Origin: Blastococcus atacamensis
Lineage (GTDB): Bacteria > Actinomycetota > Actinomycetes > Mycobacteriales > Geodermatophilaceae
Reading direction: 5' to 3'
Assembly (NCBI RefSeq): GCF_002938425.1
Contig: NZ_POQU01000002.1
Coordinates: forward strand, 1-64,000
DNA length: 64,000 nt
The notes beneath the pieces were generated by a model, which did not search any database, had not been told where the DNA came from, and saw only the letters and a program-made list of their open reading frames with translations. The position numbers and the translations under genes are program-made. Of the stretch, positions 55,678 through 56,807 are shown one piece after another (position 1 is the first letter of the stretch; every line of letters begins with the position of its first letter).

Positions 55678-55752
55678 CGCCGGCCGCGGCGATGCCCTTG
55701 TGGCGGCATTGCGCGCCGCAGAATGTCTCTCCCAGGGATAGTGCCGCGACGC

Positions 55753-55783
55753 TTGACCCTCGACCCGGTCGAGGCCCGACGGT
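55753..55783 (+). promoter_or_regulatory. MerR-type promoter/operator
   Basis: -35 TTGACC (55753-55758), 19-nt spacer, -10 GACGGT (55778-55783). The spacer holds a perfect palindrome CCTCGACC-c-GGTCGAGG (55758-55774). Long spacer plus centred palindrome is the classic MerR/SoxR arrangement. The MerR-fusion gene starts 20 bases downstream. Confidence 0.75.
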
Positions 55784-55802
55784 GCTGGACGTGGAGGAGC
55801 GC

Positions 55803-56807
55803 ATGCGGGGGATCGGCCAGATGGCGCGCGACAGCGGCCTGACGGTGAGCGCCCTGCGGTTCTACGACGGCGCCGGCGTGCTCGTGCCGGCACACGTTGA
55901 CCCGTGGACGAACTACCGCTGGTACGGAGACGACCAGGTCGTCGTCGCGCGGTTGCTCGCCCGGCTGCGACGGGTGGGTCTGCCGCTCGCCGAGATCAGC
56001 CGGGTGCTCGAGCACCGGAACGACCTCGCCGTCGTCGACGCCGTGCTGGAGGCGCACCTGAGGCGTCTCGAGGACGGCCTGGCCGATGCCCGCCGTGAGC
56101 TCCTCTCCGCCCGTTCCCTACTGGTTCAGGAGAGCCCGATGACCTCGATCGCCACCACCGCCCCCGCGCTGCTCGCGGCCCTGCGCGCCGTCCGCTTCGC
56201 CGTCGGCACCGACCCGGAGCTGCCGATGCTCACCGGCGTCCTCCTCGACGCCGACCCCGATGCCGTGCGGGTGGTTGCCACCGACCGCTACCGGCTGGTC
56301 GTGCGGCAGCTGCCCGGCGCGGTGCTCGACGGAGCTCGGATCAGCGTGATCGTGCCGGTCGCCCTGGTCGACGAGCTGCTGAGCAGCACGGCGAGCGGTC
56401 CGGTGACCGTGCGCGTTGACGGGGACGACGTCGTCGTGCAGGGGTCGGACCTCGCGCTGCGGGGCCGCCGGGTGGACGCCGACTTCCCCGACTACCGGCC
56501 ACTGGTCCGCGAGCCGGGCAGCGCGCAGATGGAGCTCGACGTCGCCCGCTTCCGCGACGAGCTCGCCGCCGCGCCCACCCGCGCGGTGCCGACGGGACCC
56601 GACGGCGCGGAGGAGACCGCGACCGTGCTCACCCTGGGCGAGGTCGAAGTGGGCGTGAACCGCGAGTTCCTGCTGCAGGCGCTCGACGCCGACGACGCCG
56701 GCCAGCTCGTGCTGGACCTCGACGGGCCGCTCGCGCCGCTGGCCATCCGCGACCCCAGCCGCCCCGGCGACGTCAGTCTGCTGATGCCCATCCGCCTCCC
56801 CGCCTGA
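55803..56807 (+). CDS. MerR-family regulator fused to DNA polymerase III beta-clamp-like domains
   Basis: 334 aa. Residues 1-75 are a MerR HTH (MRGIGQMARDSGLTVSALRF, GDDQVVVARLLARLRRVGLP), followed by the coiled-coil helix (~75-105). From ~122 to the end the protein resembles DnaN domains 2 and 3: LPMLTGVLLDADPDAVRVVA, TDRYRLVVRQLPG, DADFPDYRPLV, and the C-terminal VSLLMPIRLP. Domain 1 of the clamp is absent. It cannot be a normal processivity clamp; the clamp fold probably serves as a sensing or protein-binding module. GGAGGAGCGC fixes ATG 55803. A MerR-type operator upstream implies autoregulation. Confidence 0.88.
   Translation: MRGIGQMARDSGLTVSALRFYDGAGVLVPAHVDPWTNYRWYGDDQVVVARLLARLRRVGLPLAEISRVLEHRNDLAVVDAVLEAHLRRLEDGLADARRELLSARSLLVQESPMTSIATTAPALLAALRAVRFAVGTDPELPMLTGVLLDADPDAVRVVATDRYRLVVRQLPGAVLDGARISVIVPVALVDELLSSTASGPVTVRVDGDDVVVQGSDLALRGRRVDADFPDYRPLVREPGSAQMELDVARFRDELAAAPTRAVPTGPDGAEETATVLTLGEVEVGVNREFLLQALDADDAGQLVLDLDGPLAPLAIRDPSRPGDVSLLMPIRLPA

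Follow-up and report, generated by a model that had tools for sequence, protein, structure and literature searches.

In the window (the whole stretch of 64,000 nucleotides analysed here) an uninterrupted open reading frame of 334 residues, 55803-56807 on the forward strand, joins a MerR-type DNA-binding domain to part of a sliding clamp. All features of the gene given below are on the same strand. Residues 1-70 (55803..56012) are the MerR winged-helix domain, with residues 4-70 matching Pfam MerR_1 at 3.1e-12, above its cut-off. There follows a long helix in the AlphaFold2 model, residues 75-107 (56025..56123), which by analogy with the MerR family would be the coiled coil of a dimer. Clamp domain II, at about residues 119-240 (56157..56522), contains the sequence FPDYR and the pocket motif ATDRYRL (56277-56297), and a shortened clamp domain III, at about residues 241-332 (56523..56798), contains the C-terminal pocket motif LLMPIRL (56778-56798). 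Each DnaN subunit has three clamp domains; the MerR-clamp protein has II and III and lacks I. A preliminary description of this DNA had read a clear N-terminal MerR helix-turn-helix and the second and third clamp domains only, and both readings stand.

The profile search that it proposed for the C-terminal part gave a match of residues 125-230 to DNA_pol3_beta_2 at 9e-16, one of residues 275-331 to DNA_pol3_beta_3 at just 0.04, under its cut-off, and, for the fusion protein, one to the NCBIfam dnaN model TIGR00663 at 1.4e-24, under the equivalog cut-off. A sequence search of the PDB behaved alike, with strong alignment for domain II and weak, low-scoring alignment for domain III that reaches the C-terminal LLMPIRL. 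Structure prediction, which had been proposed there for the dimer, favours the clamp fold for both domains of the single chain. The AlphaFold2 monomer model, built from 61 sequences, has a mean pLDDT of 89.8, and residues 109-332 of this single chain superpose on residues 121-366 of the E. coli clamp (DnaN) with Z 24.0 and an rmsd of 2.7 over 216 residues; for the M. smegmatis clamp with a bound natural product (5ah2) the values are Z 22.9 and 2.5 over 211 residues. The first clamp strand in the model is residues 114-119. An alignment with actinobacterial DnaN shows a 5-residue gap in the fusion, in the first helix of domain III, near what we take to be the ring-closing dimer interface. From its sequence we infer that the two-domain clamp part forms no ring.

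The neighbouring genes, named from reading their open frames, would encode a GH13 enzyme, an FKBP-like protein and an acyl-CoA dehydrogenase, and no biosynthetic cluster was recognised among the neighbouring frames. Gene context was rejected as a clue to function, since, of the 71 named loci compared, neighbour matches of >40% identity recur in only 5 (L052 and L055-L058: three titled Blastococcus, one Geodermatophilus, plus L055). The record of L055 is titled Bacillus sp. AZ43 and flagged unverified; its gene and neighbourhood are Blastococcus-like, and the organism name looks wrong.

The fusion is not confined to this strain. Among 97 related genomes it is present (E <1e-100) in 12 of the 23 from the same genus, counting the window's own, and in 2 further genomes of the family; elsewhere in the order there are relatives at about 50% identity as well as divergent members. 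A sample of the class has the gene in 12 of 246 genomes at E <1e-30, and in Micromonospora it is near-universal (58 of 61). The best 80 of 548 MerR-like relatives include members from Actinacidiphila and other genera, and full-length ones exist in Blastococcus, Geodermatophilus, Pseudonocardia, Streptomyces, Kitasatospora and Micromonospora; as full-length relatives occur in several genera, the fusion is not a product of chance. For comparison 104 genes were collected, of which 9 duplicates and 1 broken gene were set aside to leave 94 (the window's among them; 71 of the loci are named). A literature search of open-licence PMC papers found no description of a MerR-DnaN fusion.

MerR promoters carry a dyad operator in an over-long spacer of 19-20 bp. 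The promoter of the MerR-clamp gene has a dyad in just such a spacer. Its -35 element is TTGACC (55753..55758; 92 of 94 relatives have TTGAC here), the spacer is 19 bp (55759-55777) and the -10 element is GACGGT (55778..55783; mostly CAGAGT or CAGGAT in relatives). The operator, 55758..55774, consists of 8-bp half-sites, CCTCGACC and GGTCGAGG, around one base, and its first base overlaps the -35; the dyad letters in the spacer are CTCGACC-C-GGTCGAG. TTGAC, a 19-bp spacer and a -10 of the form nAnnnT occur together in 92 of 94 relatives (L058 and L071 are the exceptions), and in 70 of these 92 the half-sites are symmetrical at 6 or 7 of 7 positions. The predicted operator lies inside 55740-55800, the region for which a footprint had been suggested; the operator itself, and the regulon, had been overlooked. 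An operator at the gene's own promoter is the sequence signal expected of autoregulation, in which the fusion protein would bind the DNA and activate the promoter.

In 87 of the 92 the first in-frame start is 6-8 nt behind the -10, so the mRNA is probably leaderless, here with GTG at 55791..55793, 7 nt behind the -10, as the first codon of the full-length protein. The open frame earlier placed at 55803-56807 is real, but its start is more likely 12 nt further upstream.

Within the frame there is a second start signal, at 56139, which had also escaped notice. The Shine-Dalgarno sequence AGGAG (56128..56132) is followed after 6 nt by ATG, the codon of Met 113, at the boundary of the clamp part; initiation there would give a clamp-only product of 222 aa (56139..56807, stop included). 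In the 94 genes the codon in this column is ATG in 72, GTG in 15, TTG in 2; the remaining 5 have another codon or none. An ATG or GTG with a Shine-Dalgarno sequence at the clamp boundary is found in 86 of the 93 genes that have the column, which ranks first among 349 alignment columns; the outer start comes second (57%) and the next internal column stands at 30%. Mean anti-Shine-Dalgarno pairing energy is also strongest at this column (only the low end of the ranking was used, since some columns close to the gene start apparently lacked any upstream stretch). Of the 16 genes with Val at this position, 15 encode it by GTG, against a GTG usage of 48% (p 1.4e-4, relatedness not corrected). From these signals we conclude that the gene would also make a clamp-only protein by internal initiation, like tipA and albA.

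In Micromonospora the internal start is kept in 32 of 58 genes and lost in the other 26, by about 3 losses on the tree. The 26 genes without it retain nearly all pocket residues. Since the protein is kept through these losses, the linker residues at the internal start are dispensable for it, and since 26 of 58 genes do without the start, a free clamp part acting as a decoy is not always needed.

The review PMC11139829 gives 18 residues of the clamp pocket, which it treats as a general protein-binding site. The 18 were mapped onto the fusion through the PDB-search alignment. Across 89 relatives their mean entropy is 0.67 bits, compared with 1.56 for the remainder of the clamp part, a value equalled in 2 of 100,000 permutations. 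Their identity to five actinobacterial DnaNs, taken over 17 relatives, is 67%, compared with 23% elsewhere (0 of 100,000 permutations). Retained among the 89 relatives are T172 (83), G174 as R (88), R176 (88), P242 (88), M362 (89) and P363 (89). The place of Arg365, a contact of mycoplanecin (PMC10817943), is R in 76. The window protein departs from the E. coli pocket list at two places, R152, where it has L as do the five DnaNs compared, and R246, where it has P (R in 79 of 89 relatives). Five divergent members of the family retain fewer pocket residues. A survey of this kind had been called for in the preliminary description, and by it the peptide and griselimycin pocket is the conserved surface. 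On DnaN griselimycin binds between domains II and III, just the portion that the fusion retains, and mycobacterial resistance to it arises via dnaN amplification (PMC5694481, PMC8765428).

In the window's own genome the sole exact operator is that of the MerR-clamp gene's promoter. With up to 3 mismatches there are seven further matches; one (L130, 3 mismatches) is the same dyad on the opposite strand, and the other six, with 2-3 mismatches, all lie inside long open frames. A regulon in this genome was rejected, weakly, on account of that position inside long frames, common in GC-rich DNA. Even allowing up to 3 mismatches, no operator lies at dnaN in the window's genome, and two other Blastococcus have none there. 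The exact operator is present in 4 of the 246 class genomes, each among the 12 carriers of the gene and each time directly upstream of it; the backward sequence, as a control, gave zero matches in the same 246.

At up to 1 mismatch in the 97 related genomes, 18 of 26 operator sites are at the gene. The remaining 8 comprise 3 orphan sites in Blastococcus, 2 Micromonospora targets (L160, L161) and 3 others (L154, L155, L159). The gene is absent from three Blastococcus genomes in which the operator remains (L139 1501-1521, L142 1501-1521, L140 ~1501-1642); the leftover operator, in one of the three with a mismatch, adjoins a putative alpha/beta hydrolase gene, and a MerR fragment survives in one of these genomes (G005; L140). 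The orphan operators of G020 and G006 were considered as other targets and dropped, the sequence downstream being read as deletion scars. [Blastococcus G011 has a second MerR-clamp paralogue, L036 2482-3495 on the reverse strand, which is 32% identical; its operator is a variant one, and it lacks the internal start. A divergent MerR-clamp subfamily (L025, L026, L027, L028), with promoters starting TTGACCTTC and no internal start led by a Shine-Dalgarno sequence, may sense something else.]

The 15 sites in Streptomyces, in 15 of 61 genomes, are all before the fusion gene, one copy being degraded. Streptomyces genome G435 has a fragmented fusion copy behind a weakened operator (L302).

It is in Micromonospora that the operator extends to other genes. 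At up to 1 mismatch 59 of 61 genomes contain it, against 0 for the control: fusion and operator occur together in 58, operator alone in 1 and neither in 2. The one with operator alone, G385, has two operator sites, the fusion not being found in it at 1e-30. The shared sequence and this co-occurrence suggest that the fusion protein, not another MerR, uses the Micromonospora sites. Genes downstream were classed by tblastn, the sites at the fusion gene itself being included only in part. MFS exporters are the commonest extra targets, in 33 of 61 genomes (exporter A in 26, exporter B in 7). The operator precedes the gene for a TPR-like protein in 19 of 61 genomes (L160 1539-2045; 158-168 aa, with Pfam TPR matches below cut-off), dnaN in 15 and the gene of a YunG-family protein in 10 (L249 1043-1483, reverse strand; by tblastn and Pfam, as for the TPR-like protein). 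Five of the 97 site copies (95 distinct) fit no target class.

The dnaN site is 688-714 bp upstream of the dnaN ATG and oriented to dnaN in all 15 genomes, and in L223 it is located between dnaA and dnaN. There, at 2502-2532, a MerR-type promoter stands in the dnaA-dnaN origin region with DnaA-box-like motifs downstream, and induction of it would send transcription through oriC. From the sites, the Micromonospora fusion protein is probably also wired to dnaN and to MFS exporters.

With gene classes from an earlier script and by eye, before the tblastn reassignment, Micromonospora genomes with the internal start have a dnaN site in 14 of 32 and any MFS site in 10 of 32, and those without it have 1 of 26 and 22 of 26. 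The idea that exporter sites replace the lost internal start was taken as a hint only, as about 3 losses on the tree leave independent-pair tests powerless.

Our reading, to which we give a probability of about 0.6, is that the gene is a self-inducing sensor and sponge for compounds of the clamp pocket such as the griselimycins. The ligand is suggested by the pocket and, outside the window's genome, by the regulon. The full-length dimer would sit on the spacer dyad of its own promoter and keep that promoter weak. An inhibitor of the griselimycin type would lodge in the regulator between its two clamp domains, II and III, and the ligand-bound dimer would distort the DNA and so switch the promoter on. 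From the resulting leaderless mRNA the outer start would yield more full-length regulator, and the internal start, with its Shine-Dalgarno sequence, would yield the free two-domain clamp, unable to form a ring. The free clamp part would bind the drug and so shield the cell's own DnaN. In Micromonospora the regulator would also raise dnaN, giving more target, and MFS exporters.

A ligand of the clamp pocket is favoured because the pocket is conserved and the Micromonospora operator stands before MFS exporters and dnaN, and the exporters in the regulon point to a small molecule rather than a protein. Decoy clamp, dnaN and exporters together make up the regulon one would expect of a response to griselimycin-like drugs. 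The preliminary description had thought of a MerR protein with the clamp fold as its sensor; fold, promoter and family lend this support, with sensing itself inferred. Among the triggers it had named, a ligand in the pocket gains from the conserved pocket and the MFS and dnaN sites, whereas replication stress found no support here.

The clamp part might instead sense or trap a protein (a clamp-binding toxin, a phage inhibitor or partners freed in replication stress), with the decoy shielding DnaN; this we consider unlikely, though the pocket is the clamps' general protein-binding site (PMC11139829), the toxin SocB targets a similar site of DnaN (PMC5694481) and dnaN is targeted in 15 of 61 Micromonospora genomes. 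The complex of a clamp with phage Gp168 (7evp) is also among the fold matches, merely as a clamp structure. MFS exporters, found behind the operator in 33 of 61 genomes, would however be useless against a protein, and the near-universal presence of the gene in Micromonospora (58 of 61) also weighs against one. The exporters would suit a general multidrug sensor on the clamp fold, its pocket taking unrelated hydrophobic compounds, and versatile pockets are frequent in such sensors (PMC7762955). Pocket residues so like those of DnaN (67% against 23% identity) would be needless for a free multidrug pocket, however, and dnaN itself is targeted in some genomes, which makes this distinctly improbable.

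A regulator of replication, in which the Micromonospora operator in the dnaA-dnaN origin region would tune transcription of dnaN and the origin to clamp supply, is less probable again. In its favour are the 15 genomes whose operator lies 688-714 bp ahead of the dnaN ATG, with DnaA-box-like motifs in the interval; against it, such a site is present in just 15 of 61 Micromonospora and in neither the window's genome nor two other Blastococcus, exporters are misfits among its targets and the gene has been deleted in three Blastococcus genomes. That the clamp part is a structural relic of the fold and the internal start merely a conserved methionine is scarcely credible. Nothing speaks for it directly; against it, Val in that column is almost always encoded by GTG, the Shine-Dalgarno sequence tracks the start codon, and clades that lost the start retain the protein with nearly all of its pocket residues.

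Griselimycins and mycoplanecins, which act on DnaN, are leads for anti-tuberculosis drugs. If the sensor-and-sponge reading is true, natural products that bind the clamp pocket would be common in soil and sustain a defence in nearly all Micromonospora and part of Streptomyces. An inducible decoy-and-efflux response in actinomycetes would be an environmental reservoir of resistance to clamp ligands, the regulator would be a ready biosensor for discovering clamp inhibitors, and it would be a clean case of a regulator evolved through copying a drug target. The role of MerR proteins with DnaN domains would become a testable question. That this is a new class of antibiotic-inducible resistance (a sensor copied from the target, a free decoy by internal initiation, and dnaN and efflux joining in some lineages) we hold with slightly less assurance than the reading itself, though still as the better bet.

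Among known systems DnaN itself, the beta sliding clamp, has the same peptide pocket and the same fold in domains II and III; the fusion differs in lacking domain I, in its shortened domain III and in not being expected to form a ring. GriR and MypR, the clamps by which griselimycin and mycoplanecin producers resist their own products, are likewise second clamp-derived proteins tied to clamp-inhibitor antibiotics in the account of PMC10817943. However, they are DnaN genes of biosynthetic clusters, whereas the gene described here joins two clamp domains to a regulator, and the incomplete clamp does not amount to the complete second DnaN that characterises GriR and MypR. TipAL/TipAS of Streptomyces lividans, described in PMC7762955, is an autoregulated MerR gene with a second start that gives a free drug-binding domain. 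TipAS (PF07739) binds thiopeptides covalently; as a TipAS domain is absent among the 6 Pfam families matching the fusion at E <=1, the fusion is not of the TipA class. AlbA, of Klebsiella oxytoca albicidin resistance, is alike in its MerR helix-turn-helix and in a promoter with a 19-bp spacer and two 8-base half-sites around one base (PMC10189885). It is alike also in its long and short in-frame products from one gene, with the drug-binding domain serving as a self-regulatory sponge (PMC10189885 and PMC6078987); in the MerR-clamp gene the short form and its sponge role are predicted. AlbA's drug domain consists of tandem TipAS-like helical domains, whereas in the MerR-clamp protein its place is taken by the copied fold of a known antibiotic target. 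What is new relative to TipA and AlbA is that sensor and decoy derive from a drug's target.
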